Position numbers and translations under genes: made by a program
The notes under the pieces: model-generated
What the model was told of the DNA's origin: nothing
What the model saw: the letters and a program-made list of their open reading frames with translations, nothing else
The model's database searches: none
Shown here: positions 4,470 through 49,500 of the stretch, in pieces
How positions within the stretch are numbered: the stretch's first letter is position 1
Layout of the letters: each line of letters starts with the position of its first letter
IMG/VR virus record: IMGVR_UViG_3300033149_004564
Location: 1 to 64,000 of that record
Reading direction: 5' to 3' (one strand)
From: a virus
DNA: 64,000 nucleotides

Positions 4470-5165
4470 CTAAAGTGGTGTGTCTGTTGATTCAAGTTGT
4501 TTCATTCGTTTTTTAATAAATTCTACCGCCTTGGGTAAAATTTGACACACCCTACTTTCAGAAACATTTAAAACAGCCCTGGCTTGTTTCATTGTAAATC
4601 CGTTTAAATAATAAAGTCTGAATGCTTTTCCTTGTTTAAAAGGTAGCTCATAAGAAACTTGTTTGATCAAATCAAGTCTCTCTTGTTTTATATATTCTTC
4701 TTCTATATCTACTTGTGGATCAATTAATGTATCAAGTAGGGTTCTTTTATTAAATGGATTATCTTCATAAAACTCCTTATCTATTGAATCAACCCGCCTA
4801 ATATTTTGTTTGTGTCCTTTTCTACCAAGCTCTGCCCTAAAAAAATCTACTATAGCATAATTAGTTGCTTTCAACATTATATATTTTGATAATTTATGTA
4901 TTTTACCATTTTGAATACCAATAAATATTTTAAGAAAAGTATCATTTGCAATTTCCTCTGCTGATTCTCTTGCACAGATATAGTAAGTTCTACTCATTGG
5001 TACAAATATATATTTAAAAATTAATCCCCAATATCTCCTCATAATTTCTTGTTGTGCTACATAATCTTTTTCAACAATATCAAGTAAAAGTGAATCAAGC
5101 CCTTTAAAGGTTAATCTATCCCAATTACTGGGCCAACCAAAACCCGCTGATGTTTTATATTTCAT
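4470..5165 (-). CDS. ECF-type sigma-70 family sigma factor
   Basis: The 231-residue protein shows both domains of a small sigma factor. Residues about 38-115 match region 2 (core binding and -10 recognition: ESAEEIANDTFLKIF, then a basic helix with VDFFRAELGRK). Residues about 163-222 match region 4, with helix-turn-helix GFTMKQARAVLNVSESRVCQ. It would bind host core RNA polymerase and redirect it to phage promoters with a -35-like element. The start overlaps the upstream stop (ATGA). A second sigma-like gene is at 47690. Confidence 0.8.
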   Translation of the reverse strand: MKYKTSAGFGWPSNWDRLTFKGLDSLLLDIVEKDYVAQQEIMRRYWGLIFKYIFVPMSRTYYICARESAEEIANDTFLKIFIGIQNGKIHKLSKYIMLKATNYAIVDFFRAELGRKGHKQNIRRVDSIDKEFYEDNPFNKRTLLDTLIDPQVDIEEEYIKQERLDLIKQVSYELPFKQGKAFRLYYLNGFTMKQARAVLNVSESRVCQILPKAVEFIKKRMKQLESTDTPL

Positions 5166-11614: not shown

Positions 11615-11660
11615 TAAATTTTGGGAAAACTAAGATGTAAATTTATAAAGTTTTTTTATC

Positions 11661-15728: not shown

Positions 15729-15739
15729 AGAATCTAATC

Positions 15740-15853
15740 CCGAAGTGGACCCCAACTATGATCGGCAATCTCTACCTGCGCGTCCACAGGCCGATAGCAC
15801 GTTTACAAGAGATCGCGTTGGCACCGTGTGTCTGCATTCAGCAGCCACTTCGG
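15740..15853 (-). ncRNA. structured segment B
   Basis: CCGAAGTGG (15740-15748) pairs perfectly with CCACTTCGG (15845-15853). Inside, ATCGGC pairs with GCCGAT and AATCTCT with AGAGATC, which suggests a branched fold, although the two inner pairings interlock and may be alternatives. It lies between tRNA-Pro and a tRNA-like remnant and is much richer in G+C than neighbouring genes. No convincing gene is present. The strand is assumed from the neighbours. Confidence 0.35.
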
Positions 15854-15864
15854 AATATTTAACC

Positions 15865-15929
15865 TGCCGGGGCCGGATTTGAACCGGCTATCAACGTCCG
15901 ATACGCTTACCGCACCACGCCGCCCGGTA
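15865..15929 (-). tRNA. tRNA-like remnant
   Basis: A canonical T arm (GCCGG-TTCAAAT-CCGGC) is followed by CCCGGCA, which pairs with TACCGGG at the 5' end with one A-C mismatch. A D-loop-like GTGGTGCGGTA is present. The anticodon stem is short (TATC/GATA), the loop GGACGTT lacks U33 (it would read ACG, Arg), there is no variable loop and no CCA. It is probably a decayed tRNA rather than a working one. Confidence 0.4.
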
Positions 15930-15931
15930 GG

Positions 15932-16168
15932 TTATTCTTTATACCTAAAAAAATGATTTCTTATCTTAGCTCGTTCAATAGATACATCTCGTTTTATTTT
16001 TACAAAAAAACCTGAATATTTTCTTTTTGCTTCATCTGCATTTCCACAAGTAAAAACTAAAAATTCATACAATAATTTTGACCAACAAATATCAGATATT
16101 TTCCCAGCAAGATAAAAACCAAAACAAAAAGCTAATATAGCAGTTATAATTATAATTAGATAAATCAT
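15932..16168 (-). CDS. membrane-anchored hypothetical protein
   Basis: A 78-residue product: an N-terminal transmembrane helix (MIYLIIIITAILAFCFGFYL) and a basic cytoplasmic part (RKYSGFFVKIKRD). Its ATG overlaps the upstream TGA (ATGA), showing coupling. Its stop codon lies within the stem that bounds the tRNA-like remnant. Unknown function; a role with neighbouring small membrane proteins is possible. Confidence 0.55.
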   Translation of the reverse strand: MIYLIIIITAILAFCFGFYLAGKISDICWSKLLYEFLVFTCGNADEAKRKYSGFFVKIKRDVSIERAKIRNHFFRYKE

Positions 16169-20399: not shown

Positions 20400-20425
20400 A
20401 AGATTTTTATTTTTAACCAACAAAA

Positions 20426-24611: not shown

Positions 24612-25814
24612 TCAAGTTGCTTTAATATTATGTAGTGGAATAAGTCGATCAATGATTTCTGCCGTTGGGCTTATAGTTGATTCAATTAACGCCGTATCCT
24701 TATAAGCCATAGGAGCTTCATCAAGCGTGCTCTCGACCACCGACTGGCTGTAGATGCCCTCCATCGATGCGGTAAAATCCTCCATCGGTATCTTTGCCTT
24801 CGCCGCAGTGCGAGACAGCACCCTTCCAGCCCCATGTGGTGCACTATAGTTCCAGTCTGGATTACCTTTGCCCTCAACAATAAATGTCCCATCACGCATA
24901 TTCAGAGGAACGATTGCAAGCTGGCCTTTGTTGCATTGAATAGCACCTTTACGAATAATATTGTCATCAAAGTTAATATAGTTATGCACAGATTCAATTT
25001 CATCAGACGGCACACATCCTGGAAGCAGTTCAATAATCAATCTCGCTATCGTATGACGATTAAGTTCTGCATATTCTTGGGCGGCTTTCATATCACGTAA
25101 ATAACCAACTAACTCAGCACCCTCTAAGTATTCCAACCCTCTATCCATTTGAGTACAATTGGCTTTTAACGCATTGACCCTCTGCCCTATTTCTTCATTG
25201 GTTGAGGTTGTTTCTTTAAGTGCTTTAACCTTCTCTGCAAAATCCTTTTTTTGTGATACCCTATTCTTAGCTTGCTTCTGCCAGTAATCACAAATACACT
25301 TGCCAAAATTTCTTGATCCAGTATGAACAATAAGCCATATATCTCCATTTCTAAATGATCTTGAAAACTCAATAAAATGATTACCACCACCAAGAGTTCC
25401 TATACTTTTAAATGCTCTTTTTTCAGCTGCTCCTACTCTATAACATATCTCAAACCATGTTGGTTTACCGTCTATTGCCATAGAGCGAACAGCAAACCCC
25501 ATTGGTACTACTTTTCTAATATCATCATCAAAGTCTTTTGTGCCAATACGCTCCAGCAATTCTGAATTATTCCCTAAGTTCACAGCTAATACTCCACAGC
25601 CAATATCTACCCCCACAATATTAGGGGCCAGCTTATTGCCGAGCTTCATAGTAAAACCAATAACAGAACCGTATCCTGCATGGCAGTCCGGCATAATAGC
25701 AATAGGATTAGTAAATTGCTCATTATTAACCATTTGACTAATTTGCTCTAAACAAGATTGTTCAACATTATCAACATAGATAAGTGCTGAAGTATATTTA
25801 CCATTTATCATCAT
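24612..25814 (-). CDS. rtcB: RtcB-type RNA ligase
   Basis: The 400-residue protein has the RtcB signatures in order: DCHAGYG (about 43), GVDIGCG (about 69), LGGGNHFIE (about 141), HTGSRNFG (about 162) and HGAGRVLS (about 337, near the guanylated histidine region). RtcB joins RNA ends bearing 2',3'-cyclic phosphate to 5'-OH using GTP and manganese. In phages it probably repairs tRNAs cut by host defence. Part of the C-terminal third (about 24680-24900) is much richer in G+C than the rest, hinting at mosaic origin. Confidence 0.85.
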   Translation of the reverse strand: MMINGKYTSALIYVDNVEQSCLEQISQMVNNEQFTNPIAIMPDCHAGYGSVIGFTMKLGNKLAPNIVGVDIGCGVLAVNLGNNSELLERIGTKDFDDDIRKVVPMGFAVRSMAIDGKPTWFEICYRVGAAEKRAFKSIGTLGGGNHFIEFSRSFRNGDIWLIVHTGSRNFGKCICDYWQKQAKNRVSQKKDFAEKVKALKETTSTNEEIGQRVNALKANCTQMDRGLEYLEGAELVGYLRDMKAAQEYAELNRHTIARLIIELLPGCVPSDEIESVHNYINFDDNIIRKGAIQCNKGQLAIVPLNMRDGTFIVEGKGNPDWNYSAPHGAGRVLSRTAAKAKIPMEDFTASMEGIYSQSVVESTLDEAPMAYKDTALIESTISPTAEIIDRLIPLHNIKAT

Positions 25815-30623: not shown

Positions 30624-33182
30624 TTAAATTTTCTCCATCGATAGCCAATTAGTTCCAAAAGTCCAGGAAACGGTAATTGGAACATCACGCATCCACGGCC
30701 ACCGATTTCTTCTAAACTCTCTATCTACTATATCAAATACATCATCAAGTTCATCACTCACTGTATCAACTGTTACTGCATCATGCACCTCAATATTCAT
30801 ACCACTTTTAAATCTTTCTCCTATCATAATCTTATCAATTTCAACCATACCGCCAAACATAATCCAAGTAGCAAGGTGTTGAATTGGTGTATTAATAACC
30901 TGCTTTTCATCAAGTGGACCACGCCGTCTAAAACCTGTGGGCATTTCTACATAACCGGTCCGTTTATAATCTTGTTTAGTCTGCTCTTGCCATTCAAATA
31001 AATCTTTATATTCATTCTCAAGCATTCTAATACAATGAATAATATGCTTTTTCGGTAAATTATATCCAGCTTGCATAAAATGCCCACAAATTGAATCATC
31101 TTGACTACCATAAAATTTTGGAAACACAAAATTACTTTTTGTAAAATCTCTATTTTTCTCAGCCACCCTATCAGTAGCAACATCAAATAATTTTGCTGCC
31201 CATTTTGAGTGTATATCAACCCTGTCTTTTATTTGTTTTGTTAAAATTTTATCTTCAGAAACCATAGCCATTACCGCAACTTCCATTGCTTTACCATCAC
31301 CCTCAAGAAAATAATCAAACTTTGGTATTATACATTTACGAACAACTTTTTGCTCTTCATCTCTTTTTGGTACATTCTGCAAATTTGGATCGTGTGAATT
31401 ACTTCTAATTGTATCAGTCATTAAATCAAAAGATGGATGAATTAAATTATCTTCATCAACCAGGGTGCGCCAAGAGTGTAAATATGTTTTCAAAAACTTA
31501 GTTGTTTTTTTACAATCAATAACCTTTGTAATAAAAATTTTTATTTCTTTACTTTTTACTCTATCTTTTAATTCAATCAAACTTGCTGCATCAACTTTAT
31601 ATTTACCGGTTGCTGTTTTTCTTCCATCATAATCTATACCAAGAATTGAATAAAACAGTGTTGCAAGCTGATCTGGGCTGTTTATATTTAATCGTTTTCC
31701 TTCTTTGCTATAAAATTTTTTACCAAACAAATCGGCACACTCTCGTTTTAATCTATCAATTTTTTTCTGTCCTGCTTTGTATTGTTTATCAAGTTCTTCT
31801 AAATCTATTTTTATTCCACGCTGTTCCATTCTTGCAAACACATGTAAAACTTTCTCTTGTATCTTATGCCCTTTTAATAAATGTTTATCCATTATTTTTA
31901 GTTGCCACTGCTGAATCATCTTTGTATATCTTGCATCAAGAATACCATACATTACAGCTTTCTGTAATGGATACATTTCTAATCGTTTAACATCTATATC
32001 TGAATCATATGTTGAACCAGCCAAACAAAATACTTGTGTTTTTAGTCCAGATAATCCTTTCCTTTCATCAAGTAAATGAGCAGTATGTTGAGTACAAAAT
32101 GAAACATTTGTAGGCCAAACACCTAAATGTTTAATAACCCAACGCATGTCAAATTTTCTGTTCTGGGCTATTTTAAGCGTCTTATGCTGCAATAATTGTT
32201 GCAGCAAAATAACTATATCTTTTCTCTCAGTTTCAGTCCAACCGGGCCAGTATGAACCTTGAGAAGGAAAATCAATCGGAACCCCATAACCAATTTTACT
32301 TGAAAATGCTATTGAAAATATTAAAATTTTTGCATCAGCAACATAGGGATTTAATCCTCTTGTTTCAAGATCAAAAGAAAACGGTTTAAGGTTTTCGTCT
32401 GCTATCCAAGAGCTTAATAATTCTTTAATCTCTTTATATTTAATCAATATTTTGTTGCCAGTATTCTCATCAAGCTTTGGAAAATCATGCGAACCAATCT
32501 CAAGTAAATGTTTCAATTCAGCATTAAACAAATGCCTAACAGAATCATCATCATTGTTGTAAACAACATGAGCAGGATGATATGAAAATCCTATTTTACA
32601 ATTATATTTATTTGACCAAAAAACAGTTTTTCTTGCAAGCTGCCAAGTCATATCTACGCGCCTTGAATCTGATGCTTCCAACATATAATTATAAACATTC
32701 TCACCAAAACAAAGGATCAAATCTGGTTTATACTCAGCAAGTTGTAAATCAAGCCTTTGTTGCATACAGCTAACAACAATATTTTTAGCTGGAAATTTAT
32801 TTGCTTTATCAACAGCGGGTGGAAGCGGCCTACACTGCACAAGATTAAATTGTCTTAAATCTTTATCAAGTGAAATATTAAGTTTTGAAAATGCTCTTTT
32901 TAATACCTTACCAGATTTTCCACGAAACGGTTTATTTTTATTATCCTCTTCTCTACCAGGAGATTCACCAACAACAGCAATTGAAAGCTCTCCGCCGCCG
33001 TATGGTTCCATTTGTGGAGAAAGCGGAGCATTAAATAGTGGGCACTGTTTACCACACTCAATTAATTTTGTGCTTTCCCTTCCCTTACCCTTTCTTTTTG
33101 TACTCACTTTAGAATAATATGATTCATCAATGTGGCGGCCCAACAGATAACTAACATCAAGGTCAAAATTTTTATCTGCCAT
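30624..33182 (-). CDS. DNA polymerase I fused to a uracil-DNA glycosylase-like domain
   Basis: The 852-residue protein begins with a family 4/5-type UDG-like domain: VVGESPGREED and KPFRGKSG (residues 71-91) and FSYHPAHV (about 199-206). It continues with a DEDD 3'-5' exonuclease (DLETRG at about 271; QNRKFDMRW; GILDARYT) and a family A polymerase (motif A LEGDGKAMEVAVMA, motif B FVFPKFYGSQDD, motif C EVHDAVTVD). Motif C has Ala where the classical Glu sits (VHDE). SPO1 polymerase also has an N-terminal UDG domain. It replicates the phage genome. Confidence 0.85.
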   Translation of the reverse strand: MADKNFDLDVSYLLGRHIDESYYSKVSTKRKGKGRESTKLIECGKQCPLFNAPLSPQMEPYGGGELSIAVVGESPGREEDNKNKPFRGKSGKVLKRAFSKLNISLDKDLRQFNLVQCRPLPPAVDKANKFPAKNIVVSCMQQRLDLQLAEYKPDLILCFGENVYNYMLEASDSRRVDMTWQLARKTVFWSNKYNCKIGFSYHPAHVVYNNDDDSVRHLFNAELKHLLEIGSHDFPKLDENTGNKILIKYKEIKELLSSWIADENLKPFSFDLETRGLNPYVADAKILIFSIAFSSKIGYGVPIDFPSQGSYWPGWTETERKDIVILLQQLLQHKTLKIAQNRKFDMRWVIKHLGVWPTNVSFCTQHTAHLLDERKGLSGLKTQVFCLAGSTYDSDIDVKRLEMYPLQKAVMYGILDARYTKMIQQWQLKIMDKHLLKGHKIQEKVLHVFARMEQRGIKIDLEELDKQYKAGQKKIDRLKRECADLFGKKFYSKEGKRLNINSPDQLATLFYSILGIDYDGRKTATGKYKVDAASLIELKDRVKSKEIKIFITKVIDCKKTTKFLKTYLHSWRTLVDEDNLIHPSFDLMTDTIRSNSHDPNLQNVPKRDEEQKVVRKCIIPKFDYFLEGDGKAMEVAVMAMVSEDKILTKQIKDRVDIHSKWAAKLFDVATDRVAEKNRDFTKSNFVFPKFYGSQDDSICGHFMQAGYNLPKKHIIHCIRMLENEYKDLFEWQEQTKQDYKRTGYVEMPTGFRRRGPLDEKQVINTPIQHLATWIMFGGMVEIDKIMIGERFKSGMNIEVHDAVTVDTVSDELDDVFDIVDREFRRNRWPWMRDVPITVSWTFGTNWLSMEKI

Positions 33183-36055: not shown

Positions 36056-36166
36056 AAAATAGTCTGACTGCTCTATTTTACCTGCAACCTGCTCTTTTTT
36101 ACCTGCAACCACACGAGTGGCAGAAGCATTTAGGGTAAAATTCCCAGGAAACAGTCAGACTATTTT
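36056..36166 (-). ncRNA. structured leader C of the QueC-like gene
   Basis: A perfect 15-bp stem (36056-36070 with 36152-36166) encloses about 80 nt. It includes a 21-nt tandem repeat (36069-36089 and 36090-36110, one mismatch) with TACCTGCAACC near the right of each unit. The element lies in the leader of the QueC-like gene, whose ATG is about 10 nt beyond. It could be a riboswitch-type regulator or an attenuator; it does not match preQ1 classes by eye. Confidence 0.5.
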
Positions 36167-36195: not shown

Positions 36196-36906
36196 TTATC
36201 CGATGCTAAGAATACCCTTCTTACTCACTTTCACAACCCAACCATAGGCAATACCCCAACGATATAGGCGCCACCACATATCATATTTAGCCCGTGTATG
36301 TCCCTTTTTCTTCTCATTCATCAACCGATCAATAATATCATCCTCTGTACACTTCTTTGACAAAATTGCAGAAAGAATAATTCCATGATCTGAGCCTTTA
36401 CGAAAACCAATAAACTCATTTGTAGTCTTTGACTTAAGCACACCAGCACCAACTCTGGGTTCTCTGGCCTTTGCTGGTTTATCAGCCTTCTTACTACTCT
36501 TCTTACTGCTCTTCTTACCAGTAGCTTTCTTCTTTACTGACTTTACTTCTTCAGGCTTCTCACTCTCAAGCTCAAGTTCATCTTCCACACCATCATCTTC
36601 TTCCTCAGTTTCCTCTTCTTCAAAACCATCTTCGGCGGCAACCGCCGTCTCGATTTCCTCTTTCTCGATTTCCTCTTTCTCGGTTTCCTCTTCCTCAAGT
36701 TCATCATCATCTACTTCTTCAGGCTCCTCTTCATCTAACTCTTCCTCAGATTCCTCTTCAGAATCATCATCAGAAAATTCAAGATCATCTTCATCTACAT
36801 CAACTTCTTCAAGCTCCTCTTCATCATCAATTTCATCAACAAGAGCTTTTTCATTCTTACTCTTATTCTTAATCTTTTCAGACTTTTTATTCTTCTTCTT
36901 CGACAT
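36196..36906 (-). CDS. acidic low-complexity protein with winged-helix-like C-terminus
   Basis: A 236-residue protein. Residues about 20-130 are an acidic low-complexity block of E/D runs, followed by a lysine-rich linker (KKKATGKKSSKKSSKKADKP). The last 90 residues form a likely helical domain (GVLKSKTTNEFIGFRKGSD; YDMWWRLYRWGIAYGWVVKV), possibly winged-helix. It may be a transcription or replication adaptor. The same acidic/basic design recurs in the SSB tail at 27603. Confidence 0.55.
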   Translation of the reverse strand: MSKKKNKKSEKIKNKSKNEKALVDEIDDEEELEEVDVDEDDLEFSDDDSEEESEEELDEEEPEEVDDDELEEEETEKEEIEKEEIETAVAAEDGFEEEETEEEDDGVEDELELESEKPEEVKSVKKKATGKKSSKKSSKKADKPAKAREPRVGAGVLKSKTTNEFIGFRKGSDHGIILSAILSKKCTEDDIIDRLMNEKKKGHTRAKYDMWWRLYRWGIAYGWVVKVSKKGILSIG

Positions 36907-36961: not shown

Positions 36962-37417
36962 TCAGCAACAGTTATTTATAAATATCAAAAAGTTTTCCCC
37001 CCTAAAATAAAGTACTATTGGTTTTTCTTTATCGTGTTTGAATCGACCATCAAAAGGAATTTGAAGTTTAAGCTTTGCAGAAGGAAATATTTTCTTTATA
37101 GATTCAAAAGTGCCACCTCGGTTTATTTCAAAATTATTACCATAACCTTTATCAATGTGCACAATCCCAGTAGTCTGTACATTAAGTTGATTCCCTTTAC
37201 TATCAATCGCAGCAAAATCAGTGCAATCTATAATAATAACTGTATCACGGTGATTTGTTATTTCAATATGTAAATACCCCGCAAATCTAAGAAGCTTTGT
37301 GATTCGATACTCAATGCCATCAACCGTTCTCGGTGCGTCTTTTGTCTTTTTACCATCAATTTTAATAGCAAAAACCAATGACGGAAAAAGTAGCATAAGA
37401 AGAACCAAAGATTTCAT
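36962..37417 (-). CDS. secreted hypothetical protein
   Basis: A 151-residue protein with an N-terminal signal peptide (MKSLVLLMLLFPSLVFA) and a beta-rich mature domain (KLLRFAGYLHIEITNHRDTV, IVHIDKGYGNNFEIN) resembling an Ig-like or DUF4352-type fold. It ends CC. Probably exported; role unknown. Confidence 0.6.
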   Translation of the reverse strand: MKSLVLLMLLFPSLVFAIKIDGKKTKDAPRTVDGIEYRITKLLRFAGYLHIEITNHRDTVIIIDCTDFAAIDSKGNQLNVQTTGIVHIDKGYGNNFEINRGGTFESIKKIFPSAKLKLQIPFDGRFKHDKEKPIVLYFRGENFLIFINNCC

Positions 37418-37500
37418 TTCTCCCCCATATATATTGAACTTTTAGAATTAATGAATAAAAACAGAAAGATAAAACAAAACGCAACAACTAAATTAAATAT

Positions 37501-37820
37501 TGACATGGAAAGCATTCGGGATTTGAACCCGTAAATTGCGCAATTGAAATTAACGTCTCTATAACGTTAGAGCAACGAATCGGTATTTTCCCAGCATCAT
37601 CAAAGTTTTCGTTAATTCCTGGGAGTTGCGTCGTCCCTTCAAAGTTTTCAGTACAGGTTACCTAACTCTATTCTGCAATTCAAGAGGAGTTGTCTGCAAT
37701 TTCCGATTAACTCACAGACTACCGGTTTGTCCGTCTCTTCCTCTAACTCTGGAAAATAGAGGTTTGATCCACAGTACCTAAGCCGTAATCCGACTATCGG
37801 CTGCCATACTTCCCATGTCA
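37501..37820 (-). ncRNA. large structured RNA D with tRNA-like 3' end
   Basis: Minus-strand TGACATGGGAAGTAT (37820-37806) pairs with ATGCTTTCCATGTCA (37515-37501): 15 pairs, two of them G-U. Next to the stem on the 3' side is a canonical T-arm (CGGG-TTCAAAT-CCCG), then ATGCTTT and encoded CCA. About 270 nt lie between. This acceptor-stem plus T-arm arrangement without a normal anticodon arm is like the tRNA-like domain of tmRNA, but no conserved tag frame is found. It lies 48 bp downstream of promoter motif copy 5. Confidence 0.5.
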
Positions 37821-37867
37821 AAGAACAAACACAACAAAAAACCTTAAAATTATACTTGTTGATTTTA

Positions 37868-37885
37868 CCCTCTATTATATTATAC
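37868..37885 (-). promoter_or_regulatory. phage promoter motif, copy 5
   Basis: Minus-strand 18-mer GTATAATATAATAGAGGG, identical to copies 1 and 3. It drives structured RNA D and probably the leftward genes beyond it. Confidence 0.7.
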
Positions 37886-37903
37886 AAAATTTTCTTGGAA
37901 TTA

Positions 37904-38848
37904 TTAAATTTTTTCCGCGCTCTCCATTAACCCAAACATTTTTTCTCTACCAAGGCTGTCTGGATCTTCGCCGGCAGGCAAAATTAAAACCCTAACACAC
38001 TTAAAAAGTGGAGATATTGTCTCTGCAACTTTGATGCTTTTTATTGTTGCATCAGCATCCCAACCAATATATACAGTACGAATATCGTGTTGTAATAATA
38101 AAAGCAATTGGGCTTGTGTCAAATTATTTCTAAATGAAGCAACAGTGTTTGAACCCATACGCCATCGATCAAAAATTCCTTCAACGATTAATATCCAATT
38201 TTTCTTTTGCTTATGCAGCCAGTAAAGGTGTTCACCAAAAGAAAACCCAGGATTTAAATATGATAATATTCTTTTACTCTTTTTTCTTTGTAGATTTCTT
38301 GCTTGAAAAGAAACACGTTGTCCAATACTATTATAAATTGGTAAAATTATTCTATTTTTATATTTTCCTACACCACAAAAATACGCTTTATAATATTCAG
38401 CTTTCTTTTTTGAAAACCCCCTAAATTTTAAAAAAGACTCCATTGCTTTTATATCTTTTGTTCTTGGTGGTAATGCTATGCTACTTTTATATTTATTATT
38501 TATCACTTCTTTTTTTGGAAAAAACCTCTCTCTTAATTTAATGCTTGTTGGAGTTGGATCATTTATATAAGAATTTTTTACAAGCGAAAAAAATTCTGGA
38601 TACTTTATACCAGTTAATTTAGCAAGCAAGTCAAAAAGACTACCATTTGCACCACAACGGAAACAAGAGAAATTAAACGTTTCATTAAATATCCCACAAT
38701 GAAAACCACTATCAATAGAAGTGCAGAAAGGGCAACAAACACCAACAAAACAAGCTGTTCCAACGTTCTTGTGACCCGGCAATCGCCACTCAATTGAATA
38801 TTCATCGAGGTGGCCTTTCAAATCAAAGTTTTTTAAATTAAGTGGCAT
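37904..38848 (-). CDS. DNA primase (CHC2 zinc + TOPRIM)
   Basis: The 314-residue protein opens with a CHC2-type zinc site (CCPFC at 38-42, H50-C51, CFRC at 62-65), followed by a catalytic TOPRIM core: VEGIFD (about 222) and GWDADA (about 263). It would make RNA primers for the lagging strand. It lacks a helicase domain, which is encoded separately at 41602. Overlaps the helicase gene by eleven bases. Confidence 0.8.
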   Translation of the reverse strand: MPLNLKNFDLKGHLDEYSIEWRLPGHKNVGTACFVGVCCPFCTSIDSGFHCGIFNETFNFSCFRCGANGSLFDLLAKLTGIKYPEFFSLVKNSYINDPTPTSIKLRERFFPKKEVINNKYKSSIALPPRTKDIKAMESFLKFRGFSKKKAEYYKAYFCGVGKYKNRIILPIYNSIGQRVSFQARNLQRKKSKRILSYLNPGFSFGEHLYWLHKQKKNWILIVEGIFDRWRMGSNTVASFRNNLTQAQLLLLLQHDIRTVYIGWDADATIKSIKVAETISPLFKCVRVLILPAGEDPDSLGREKMFGLMESAEKI

Positions 38849-40434: not shown

Positions 40435-41568
40435 ATGCGTTATTATACATATATGAAACGAACCATTTCCATAAAGTTAGAGACTACACAAGAGCAATCT
40501 CAAGCTCTTTCTAACTTGCAAGCCGAATATAACCGGACATGTAATCTGATTGTCCCGTTTGTCTGTGAAACTCGCTGCTGGAACCGCGTGGCCCTGCATC
40601 ACATTGTTTATTATAAAATCAGAGCACAATCGAAACTTGGTTCTCAAATGGTTTGCATTGCAATAAAGGCCGTTGCAGATGCTTATAAAACATTGAAACC
40701 CAAAAGAACAGAAGATGTTCCTCCCATTTCTTTTAAAACAACTTCCAGTGTTCATTTTGATGCCCGCACGTTTTCCATTCAAGATGAAGCTCTTTCCCTT
40801 TATACGTTGTCCAGTCGCATTCGTGTTAAAATGATACTCGGAGATTTTCAGAGAAAATATTTTGATAATGGAACAGTAAAAGAAGCTGATCTTGTTTGTA
40901 AGCACAAAATTTGGTATTTTAATCTCGTTCTGGATTTGCCTGATACTCCTCTTAAAACCGGAAATGGCAGTGCTGTCGGAGTTGATCTTGGAGAGAACAA
41001 CTTGGCCGCCATATCCACCGGAAAGCTTTTTGGTGGTGGTCAACTTCGACACGAACGTGATAAGCATCTTGCCCTTCGCCGCAGGCTTCAACGCAACGGC
41101 TCTCAAAGCGCAAAACAACTGCTTTGCAAAGTCTCTGGTCGAGAAGCCCGCCATGTTTCCCATGTTAACCACGAAGTAAGTAAAGCCATTATCACAGAAA
41201 CTCTGCAATCGGGAAGCAACACGATTATACTGGAGAACCTGACCAATATCCGCAAACGCATTAAAGGAAGTAAAAGGATTCGTTCCCGCCTGCATCGCTG
41301 GGCATGGGCAGAACTTCAACGCTTTATTGAGTATAAAGCACAAGCTGCTGGTATTTGTGTTGAATATGTTAATCCTGCATATACCAGTCAGACTTGTAGC
41401 ATTTGTGGTTCTCTCGGTTCTCGTGTTAAACATCATTTTTCCTGCTCCTGTGGAAGCCTCGCGCACAGCGACTTGAACGCCAGTCGAAATATTGCGAAGC
41501 TTGCATCATTCTTTAATGGTGCAACGGGCGCTGTGGGCCGTCCGAATGTGGCAACCGTTTCTGGTTGA
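40435..41568 (+). CDS. tnpB: TnpB (IS605 OrfB) RNA-guided nuclease
   Basis: The 377-residue protein has TnpB's RuvC-like triad: Asp in GVDLGENNLA (about 185), Glu in IILENLTNI (about 265), Asp in AHSDLNASRN (about 350), and the CSICG...CSCG zinc finger between them. It would use an omega RNA from the element's right end to cut target sites next to a TAM, helping element retention. ATG 40435 has AAAGAGATA upstream; a second ATG at 40453 is where family proteins usually begin. Its G+C differs from the phage genes. Confidence 0.8.
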   Translation: MRYYTYMKRTISIKLETTQEQSQALSNLQAEYNRTCNLIVPFVCETRCWNRVALHHIVYYKIRAQSKLGSQMVCIAIKAVADAYKTLKPKRTEDVPPISFKTTSSVHFDARTFSIQDEALSLYTLSSRIRVKMILGDFQRKYFDNGTVKEADLVCKHKIWYFNLVLDLPDTPLKTGNGSAVGVDLGENNLAAISTGKLFGGGQLRHERDKHLALRRRLQRNGSQSAKQLLCKVSGREARHVSHVNHEVSKAIITETLQSGSNTIILENLTNIRKRIKGSKRIRSRLHRWAWAELQRFIEYKAQAAGICVEYVNPAYTSQTCSICGSLGSRVKHHFSCSCGSLAHSDLNASRNIAKLASFFNGATGAVGRPNVATVSG

Positions 41569-43858: not shown

Positions 43859-44627
43859 TTTTCCTCACAAAATTGCAAATAAGTGTGCAGACTAACTTCA
43901 AATTATAACAAATAACGAGCATAGAGTGTGTGCCATTTAATTTTAACAAGTCAACTCATATCTCTTTATGTCTGAACAATAAAAGTTGTTTAGAACGGCT
44001 TATCTGCGTTCCCAATAAATTTTTTGATTTAATAACCTTTTCAATAATTAGTAGGATAAAAATAAAGTATTTTTTATCAAGAAAAATTTTCAGTCTTTTC
44101 AAAAAATTTTTCTATGTTTTTCGGTTTTTTGAAAAACATTTTTCTTTTGTTTATTTTCTTTTATTTATTTTCTTTCTTTATGTTACTTTCTTTCTTTTCT
44201 TTTAATTTTTGCACTTTTTATCAAGAAAAACCGCGTAAGTGTTTACTTGACAGAGCTTTAGCAAATGCTGCGCAAATGCTGCAATAATATTATGTCAAAT
44301 GTTGCATAAATGCTGCAATAGTATTTACGTTTTTCTACTCTATAAAATATGCTATAATTTGTGTGTTTGCAATAGCTTACTTAAATATTTGAAAATTATC
44401 TACACACTGAAAAAATATTATTGCAGCATTTACAAGACATTTAGAAACAGAAAAAAATTAAGCACACTTTTGGTAAGGCTGCTTAAATTAAACGTTCATT
44501 ATTCAAAAAAACCCGCAAACTACTCTTTTATTTTTAACAAACAACTTAAACTTTTCAAATAAAAATGTTGTAAATTTTAGGTCGCTTTTGACAATTTATA
44601 GCTAAGTTGTTATTTGATATTGTTTTC

Positions 44628-44645
44628 CTTTCTACTATATAATAC
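44628..44645 (-). promoter_or_regulatory. phage promoter motif, copy 6 (divergent)
   Basis: Minus-strand GTATTATATAGTAGAAAG, a weaker match (TATTAT core) to the other five. It points leftward into the origin-like region and the replication genes. Confidence 0.5.
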
Positions 44646-44665
44646 AAAATTTATTAAGAAAAGGC

Positions 44666-44694
44666 TTGACTAATCTTTAATCACATGTTAGATT
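44666..44694 (+). promoter_or_regulatory. candidate sigma-70 promoter for rightward genes
   Basis: TTGACT (44666-44671), 17-bp spacer and TAGATT (44689-44694) on the plus strand, 56 bp before the radical-SAM fragment. Divergent from copy 6 of the phage motif. Confidence 0.55.
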
Positions 44695-44749
44695 GTGTGC
44701 AGAATAAAAAAACAAACATTAATTTATTTTGAAACCGGGGATTTAGGAG

Positions 44750-47689: not shown

Positions 47690-48343
47690 ATGGCACAGAA
47701 ACAAAATAATTTAACCAGAGTAGTTGATAAACTTTTTAAAGATTCAGAAGGCATTATTTGGAAACTTGCAAAACAATATATAAAATATTTACCGGCGGAA
47801 TCTGTAATGTGTGATGAAGATTTATTTATGGAGGGTATGGCAATCTATTGCTCATTACTTAATACATTTGATAAATCAAAGAAAGTAAAATTTACAACCT
47901 ATTTATATTCTTGTGTTGCAAATAGATTTAAAACGATTATTGCACGAGAGACAACAAAATATAGTTTTTCATATAATGCGGTTCCAATCTCTGTGTTTGA
48001 TAAACCAACTAATAACAAATTTCTATATAATGCACCAGAAGAGTCGGTACAAATTACACTTTGCCATATCATAAGTGACGAACTTAGCTTTGAATCAAAA
48101 ATGTTGTTAGCTAAAATATTGGAATTGAAAATCCCAGAAAGATTAGATAAATGCTGGGATGGTATTGAAACTATAGTTGATGCACAGACAAAGAGAGTTC
48201 CTATTGCAGAGTGGATAAAAATTCTTTCCGTTTTAACTAATTCAAAAAATTCACAGATTTTAAAACTGAGACAAGAATTAATTGCTATCACGAAAGGAAA
48301 GCCCATAAATAAAATACAAGTGAATGCTCCCTTGTTGCATTAG
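47690..48343 (+). CDS. sigma-70 region 2 protein (gp55-like candidate)
   Basis: The 217-residue protein contains sigma region 2: DEDLFMEGMAIYCSLLNTFD then KFTTYLYSCVANRFKTIIAR (about residues 43-88), the part that binds core polymerase and melts and reads the -10 element. No region 4 helix-turn-helix for -35 recognition is recognisable afterwards; the C-terminal half is helical. T4 gp55 has this architecture and acts only at -10-type late promoters with a sliding clamp. ATG follows CAGGGAGATTAATGCA. The gene end abuts a TnpB element. Confidence 0.65.
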   Translation: MAQKQNNLTRVVDKLFKDSEGIIWKLAKQYIKYLPAESVMCDEDLFMEGMAIYCSLLNTFDKSKKVKFTTYLYSCVANRFKTIIARETTKYSFSYNAVPISVFDKPTNNKFLYNAPEESVQITLCHIISDELSFESKMLLAKILELKIPERLDKCWDGIETIVDAQTKRVPIAEWIKILSVLTNSKNSQILKLRQELIAITKGKPINKIQVNAPLLH

Positions 48344-49500
48344 GCTTCTAAGGATTAGAACCTAAACTCTGCATTCCCAGAGTTAGAATATTAATTGAGG
48401 CATTATGATCTCTATCAAGGATAAAATTACAAAATGGACAAGTAAAGACACGCTCAGAAAGTTTAAGCTTGTGTCTTTGTCCACACTTGGAGCATGTTTG
48501 GCTTGTGTATGCAGGATTGACTTTAATTACTTTTCTACCAGCCTCTTCCGCTTTGTAGGAAAGCAAGTCAACAAACATTCGCCAAGCAGCATCTCCAATA
48601 CTTTTGTTGATGCCCCTAAAATTACCATTTTGCATTTGATTAATATTAATATCTTCAACAACTATTATTCCAAAATGATTAACAATCTTTCTTGCTATCT
48701 TGTGAGTGAAATTATGCCGTCTATTGGAAATTCTTTCATGAATATATGCAATCACTTTTCTGGCTTTGTTTCTTTCCTTATTTTGTTTTTTAAGTTTAGA
48801 AAATTTTCTTTGTACCTTAGCAAGTTGTTTTTCCTCCTGTCTAAAAAATCGTGGGTTTTTAATTCTAACCCCGTTGGAAAGTGCAGCAAATGTTTTAAGA
48901 CCAACATCTATACCTATTGCTTTGTTTGATTTGCTTATTAATTTTGGACTAACAACACAGGAAAAAGTTATGAACCATTTTCCTGTAGCAGTTTTACGAA
49001 TGGTGCATGTTTTAATTTTACCTTCTATTTGTCTATATAATTTAATTTTAACTCTACCAATTTTAGAAAGTTGAATAACTTGTTTATCAATTAATAATTT
49101 AAATCCTTTTTGTGGATAAGTAAAAGAGTTATACCTAAATTTATTTTTAAATCTGGGGAATCCGGGCTTTTCTCCAGATTTAATTCTACGAAAGAAAGAT
49201 TTAAAAGCAAAATCTAATCGAGCAGCGGTATTTTGTAATATCTGACTATATATAGTAGAAAGAGCTTGATGATCTTGTTTTAGTTGTTTAAAAGAATTGC
49301 ACTGATCAAAATAGGAAATAGATTTTTGTTCTTGTTTCCAAACATTTTTACGTTGTTCAAGTAGGTAGTTATACAACCAACAACATCTACTCAGAGTTTT
49401 ATTAAGTAGGGTGGTTTGTCTTTTGCTTGGGTAGATTCGATATTTAAAAGTTTTGTTCATAGTTTAAGTAATAATAACCTTTTGCTTAAAAGTCAAGAAA
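48328..49500 (-). mobile_element. second IS605-family tnpB-only element
   Basis: tnpB is read leftward between the convergent ends of the sigma gene and the tail-tip gene. Just after its stop, GAAGCCTAATGC forms a weak hairpin AATGC/GCATT (about 48324-48342) within the sigma-gene C-terminus, resembling a degenerate right end. No tnpA. The left end is not defined, somewhere in 49461-49541. Base composition matches the phage, suggesting long residence. Confidence 0.5.
48348..49460 (-). CDS. tnpB: TnpB (IS605 OrfB) RNA-guided nuclease
   Basis: The 370-residue protein is a typical TnpB: start MNKTFKYRIYPSKRQ, RuvC-like catalytic Asp in IGIDVGLK (about 187), Glu in VVEDINI (about 272), Asp in LDRDHNASINI (about 350), zinc finger CSKCGQ...CPFC (about 323-343). 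It differs strongly from the TnpB at 40435. If active, its omega RNA comes from the 3' end and cuts DNA next to a TAM. Confidence 0.85.
   Translation of the reverse strand: MNKTFKYRIYPSKRQTTLLNKTLSRCCWLYNYLLEQRKNVWKQEQKSISYFDQCNSFKQLKQDHQALSTIYSQILQNTAARLDFAFKSFFRRIKSGEKPGFPRFKNKFRYNSFTYPQKGFKLLIDKQVIQLSKIGRVKIKLYRQIEGKIKTCTIRKTATGKWFITFSCVVSPKLISKSNKAIGIDVGLKTFAALSNGVRIKNPRFFRQEEKQLAKVQRKFSKLKKQNKERNKARKVIAYIHERISNRRHNFTHKIARKIVNHFGIIVVEDININQMQNGNFRGINKSIGDAAWRMFVDLLSYKAEEAGRKVIKVNPAYTSQTCSKCGQRHKLKLSERVFTCPFCNFILDRDHNASINILTLGMQSLGSNP

Follow-up and report, generated by a model that had tools for sequence, protein, structure and literature searches.

A candidate phage non-coding RNA gene of about 320 nt with a tRNA-like T-arm and an acceptor-type stem

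The locus and its genome neighborhood

IMGVR_UViG_3300033149_004564 is a virus record of 66,381 bp. The sequence analyzed here (termed the window) comprises positions 1–64,000 and covers most of the record. The genome is that of a tailed phage and encodes a polymerase, clamp loader, primase, DnaB-type helicase, RecA-type protein, RtcB ligase and tail genes. The RtcB RNA ligase gene (24612–25814, minus strand; Pfam RtcB E-value = 7.8e-63) is not adjacent to the locus described below; its product is about 44% identical to RtcB from other uncultured phages.

The candidate RNA gene is located on the minus strand at positions 37500–37821 (about 322 nt). It lies in an intergenic gap of 486 bp, flanked upstream by a DnaG-like primase gene (37904–38848, minus strand; PHROG 47, E-value = 1.6e-37) and downstream by a gene for a 151 aa protein with a hydrophobic N-terminus (36962–37417, minus strand), for which no relatives were found.

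A motif was predicted to lie 48 nt upstream of the RNA, and an exact copy (TTGTATAATATAATAGAG) is indeed present at positions 37870–37887 of the minus strand, ending 48 nt before the RNA. The motif, TTGTATAATATARTAGAG, has eight matches in the window with three or fewer mismatches, all on the minus strand (0.43 expected). Since two other exact copies, at positions 20401 and 29121, directly precede start codons, TTGTATAATATARTAGAG likely acts as a promoter. Copies span positions 2737–44647 (minus strand), the strong ones being at 11616, 13391, 20401, 29121, 37887 and 44647. The phage encodes two sigma-like proteins (4470–5165 and 47690–48343), and these might recognize the motif.

Extent and coding status of the candidate RNA

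The two ends of the candidate RNA are joined by a terminal stem, termed P1. Its 5′ strand (UUGACAUGGGAAGUAU, positions 37806–37821, minus strand) pairs with its 3′ strand (AUGCUUUCCAUGUCAA, positions 37500–37515, minus strand), such that 37821–37806 is paired with 37515–37500. The fold prediction gives 16 bp, including two G-U pairs, with a pairing probability of 0.97; P1 is thus one pair longer than the 15-bp stem of the original prediction. A single base, A (37516), separates P1 from the T-arm.

A few 16-bp stems without other features are expected by chance within the window, and stems of 15–16 bp are found at several other places in it, including within genes. Because equally long stems arise elsewhere by chance, P1 taken alone says little, and it was tested jointly with the T-arm. 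The segment 3′ of the T-arm was kept fixed and the 400 nt upstream were dinucleotide-shuffled 3,000 times. None of the shuffled sequences provided this fixed segment with a 16-bp partner (the longest was 15 bp). P1 next to the T-arm exceeds chance.

Base composition, which is independent of pairing, delimits the same segment. In AT-rich genomes, G+C islands commonly mark structured RNA genes. The maximum-likelihood G+C island of the intergenic gap is at positions 37502–37819, with 43% G+C inside and 22% outside, and its edges are within 2 nt of the outer ends of P1. The log-likelihood gain is 11.1; in 60 permutations it did not exceed 10.5.

Open frames across the segment have per-codon scores of –0.26 to –0.46, which resemble those of off-frame runs (–0.27) and not those of the phage genes (+0.16). 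The segment was therefore rejected as protein-coding. An open reading frame at positions 37648–37887 was also rejected as a gene, as its start falls within the promoter motif and it scores as non-coding. The fold of the whole RNA is more stable than that of shuffled sequences (minimum free energy z = –4.9 in one run and –3.8 in another).

Because P1 with its T-arm, the matching G+C island, the non-coding statistics and the upstream promoter motif all point to the same segment, it is very probably a discrete RNA gene of about 320 nt, close to the ~310 nt that had been suggested.

The same arrangement can be read as a structured mRNA leader for the downstream genes (36962–37417 and 36196–36906), with the tRNA-like part serving as a processing signal, at which RNase P or another nuclease would trim the transcript or split it, and the RNA having no function in trans. 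This is the chief rival explanation. The RNA is on the same strand as these genes, the promoter motif is just upstream, and no terminator was found in the 82 nt that separate the candidate RNA from the next gene. Cleavage of non-tRNA phage RNAs by RNase P is established, e.g. for M3 RNA and C4 antisense RNA (PMC11143913). However, 16 bp exceeds the needs of a processing signal, and on general grounds a paired leader should impede the usual cleavage by RNase P and not promote it. The G+C island also extends beyond the T-arm side to span all 320 nt. A leader appears rather unlikely.

The tRNA-like end and the interior folds

A canonical T-arm had been noted before the 3′ stem strand. Positions 37517–37531 (minus strand) encode CGGG-UUCAAAU-CCCG, which has 4 bp (a fifth would be A-A), an exact T-loop consensus and a pairing probability of 0.97. 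GGTTCRANYCC was found twice in the window, against 0.13 occurrences expected in a shuffled one.

The original prediction also placed a CCA after the 3′ stem strand, and a free CCA end is not supported by the sequence. The “CCA” (positions 37508–37506) is inside the 3′ strand of P1, where it is paired with UGG, and it occurs one base too early for a tRNA acceptor end; it therefore does not form a free 3′ acceptor terminus. If pair numbering starts at the T-arm, pair 3–70 is A3-U70 and not G3-U70.

Several helices are predicted between the two strands of P1 (all minus strand). Helix P2 is formed by positions 37532–37539 (3′ strand, directly 5′ of the T-arm) and 37675–37682 (5′ strand), with a probability of 0.87, as a single-sequence prediction. 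A two-part hairpin (AGAGGA/UCCUCU and GUCUGUGA/UUGCAGAC) is predicted at positions 37683–37744 (probability 0.88–0.95). The acceptor strand is followed by a hairpin at positions 37776–37801 (GCCGAUAGUCGGAUUACGGC...), which resembles a D-arm. This stretch, 3′ of the acceptor strand, can be written as GCCG-AUAGUCGGAUUA-CGGC, but the lowest-energy fold pairs AGUCG with CGGCU, and forcing the GCCG/CGGC pairing costs 2.6 kcal/mol. When P1 and the T-arm are left out, the stability of the interior is just slightly above that of shuffled sequences (z = –1.2), and because of this the interior helices as drawn are tentative.

Tests against known RNA families

The original prediction had proposed a comparison with tmRNA, group I intron and tRNA covariance models; none of these reaches threshold at the site, nor does any other Rfam family. 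The best Rfam score is 17.5 bits, for tRNA (cut-off 29; E-value = 0.74), and it comes from the 3′ 74 nt of the RNA. ARAGORN at normal thresholds gives no tRNA, intron-bearing tRNA or tmRNA at the site. No proper anticodon arm was recognized in the candidate RNA, as had been expected. The RNA therefore has the consensus T-loop and T-arm of a tRNA, without a match to the tRNA model and without a free CCA after a 7-bp acceptor stem and discriminator.

These tRNA-like remains could represent a decayed tRNA gene, or a tRNA fragment gained with host DNA, that carries an insertion and is non-functional. The T-arm is intact and the D and anticodon arms are unrecognizable, which together with the weak tRNA score of the 3′ end would fit decay, and a second degenerate tRNA-like gene adjoins tRNA-Pro in this genome. 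Yet an acceptor stem would not grow to 16 bp during decay, and a tRNA with an insertion would keep its 7 bp; this makes decay less likely than a leader, and we consider it unlikely. An origin as the attP site of a temperate phage is unlikely, since a search with the Pfam model shows no tyrosine integrase in the record.

The presence of RtcB raises another explanation, an intron-containing pre-tRNA with a group I insert, or with a protein-spliced insert that is sealed by the phage RtcB. When the roughly 230 nt that follow acceptor position 7 are spliced out, ARAGORN reports a tRNA-Glu(UUC) at the 95% threshold. This was evaluated by joining every pair of flanks and scoring the result as a tRNA, with shuffled RNAs as controls. 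No joined flanks of the native RNA gave a tRNA at the full ARAGORN threshold, and at lower thresholds 35% of the shuffled controls equaled the native RNA. The group I intron model (RF00028) has no match at the site up to an E-value of 10, and a 2014 review places all phage group I introns in protein genes (PMC3984707). As shuffled controls give equal numbers of matches, a pre-tRNA with an insert was rejected and is quite improbable.

The likeness to tmRNA in the original prediction is not upheld. The general plan is similar, with tRNA-like ends, a helix directly 5′ of the T-arm, a long enclosed body and no anticodon arm. Phages with tmRNA are known, and one has the tRNA-like domain only (PMC4131195). 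These points would speak for a divergent tmRNA, or for a tmRNA inhibitor consisting of the tRNA-like domain alone. But the Rfam tmRNA model (RF00023) has no match at the site, ARAGORN gives none at its normal threshold, SmpB (Pfam model) is absent from the record, and the RNA lacks both G3-U70 and a free CCA. Short reading frames are present in the segment (e.g. one ending VALTL); in this one sequence, with no relatives for comparison, none shows a typical tag ending. tmRNA was rejected, and even a divergent form or an inhibitor is highly improbable.

A closer resemblance in plan is to the bacterial Y RNA YrlA (RF02553). YrlA consists of a large stem formed by the 5′ and 3′ ends together with D, T and acceptor-like arms, and connects Ro60 and PNPase (PMC8394870). 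The candidate RNA similarly has a long end-to-end stem, a tRNA-like T-arm and no anticodon arm. It differs in length (322 nt vs 90–150 nt), its D-arm is uncertain, the RF02553 model has no match at the site, and the Ro60/Rsr partner is missing: Ro60/TROVE (Pfam model) is absent from the phage record, although the host could supply one. YrlA proper was rejected because RF02553 fails at the site.

Other known RNAs share single properties with the candidate. The Bacillus cereus pseudo-tRNA tRNA-Other is a tRNA-like element in a larger, supposedly regulatory RNA; unlike the candidate it is a chromosomal, predicted pseudo-tRNA, and a long closing stem is not described in the abstract of its report (PMC3399842). 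M3 RNA and the C4 antisense RNA (P1/P7) are alike by description, as phage non-coding RNAs handled by the tRNA-processing machinery. GOLLD and ROOL are large structured phage non-coding RNAs that are often close to tRNAs; their Rfam models have no match at the site at the gathering threshold or at an E-value of 5 or less. GOLLD is far larger (many exceed 800 nt), and no extensive interior structure is evident in the candidate.

Search for related sequences

Blastn searches of phages and plasmids yielded no relatives of the RNA. Exact patterns taken from the T-arm/stem and from the D-like part found no relative in viral contigs and genomes. With the primase, RtcB, DNA polymerase, helicase, downstream gene and promoter motif as baits, nothing close that carries the RNA region was obtained. 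The sole near kin is a 7.7-kb fragment (termed L015) with 99.9% identity to the window, which ends before the RNA region. Within these collections the candidate RNA is an orphan, known from one sequence.

The L015 fragment lacks 51 bp (positions 33024–33074 of the window; 433–434 of the fragment) within the start of the DNA polymerase gene.

Possible function as a tRNA mimic

tRNA-mimic RNAs occur in plant viruses, and as tmRNA and Y RNA; to our knowledge few are known in phages. The explanation that we tentatively favor is that the phage encodes a non-coding RNA of about 320 nt with a tRNA-mimic handle, closest in plan to a bacterial Y RNA. The features that exceed chance are exactly those that form the T-arm/acceptor half of a tRNA. 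The name tRNA-mimic RNA, given in the original prediction, remains the best one in view of the T-arm and acceptor-like end, without the free CCA and tmRNA kinship that went with it.

P1 and the T-arm would stack as do the acceptor stem and T-arm of a tRNA, and so form an elbow. Among the factors known to bind this elbow in tRNAs are RNase P, RNase Z and modification enzymes (PMC4810234). The elbow of the candidate RNA might accordingly be held by RNase P, T-loop modifying enzymes, PNPase-type complexes or tRNA-cutting defense nucleases, and the long body in place of the anticodon arm would perform the specific work. Since a free CCA end is not formed, the RNA would be neither charged nor used in translation.

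During infection it would most likely serve as a tRNA mimic of the tethered or decoy type, in a phage that has the tRNA-mending RtcB as well. Such a scaffold or decoy role is suggested by analogy with Y RNA. YrlA genes accompany rtcBA in some bacteria (PMC8394870, PMC7790460), so that the wider YrlA system, like this phage, is tied to RtcB there. YrlA has been suggested to be a competitive inhibitor against a tRNA-cutting nuclease (PMC7790460), and PMC12282133 cites a report of YrlA in mycobacteriophages.

Besides the features of the locus itself, a tRNA mimic is favored by the RtcB gene in the same phage and by a second RNA (15862–15932) with an exact T-arm and a prolonged acceptor stem. On the other side are the low stability of the interior, the missing Ro60/TROVE, YrlA match and divergent homolog, and a length two to three times that of YrlA.

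The candidate might also represent a new class of large phage RNAs, in which the acceptor/T-arm half of a tRNA joined to a body of ~250 nt captures tRNA-binding factors, e.g. as a defense decoy, beside RtcB and the 15862–15932 RNA; this broader proposal is doubtful. A phage RNA with only a T-arm and acceptor, together with RtcB, would make mimicry against tRNA-cutting defenses directly testable, and likewise the redirection of RNA-processing enzymes by phage tRNA mimics; a single sequence underlies the idea at present.

Other elements in the window

The second odd tRNA-like RNA (positions 15862–15932, minus strand) has an exact T-arm (GCCGGUUCAAAUCCGGC) and an acceptor stem extended by five pairs (one mismatch). 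It has no variable loop and no CCA, and ARAGORN reports it as tRNA-Arg at a lowered threshold only. Between it and tRNA-Pro is an element of ~122 nt (15735–15856, minus strand) with a closing stem of 11–12 bp (UUCCGAAGUGG/CCACUUCGGGA), a fold z of about –3 and a possible internal pseudoknot; it has no Rfam match.

An inverted repeat of 18 bp, flanked on either side by A/T, lies at positions 36056–36166, and TACCTGCAACC recurs in its ~75-nt loop. This may be a two-way terminator that closes the transcription unit of the candidate RNA. A long AT-rich gap at positions 43880–44700 has GCAGCATTT repeats, inverted repeats of 16–21 bp, a copy of TTGTATAATATARTAGAG at positions 44647–44630 and no convincing genes, and is a possible replication origin.

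Two TnpB-like transposase genes are present, at positions 40435–41568 (plus strand) and 48348–49460 (minus strand). The first of these shares 53% identity with a gene of this kind from a Methylomarinovum plasmid.
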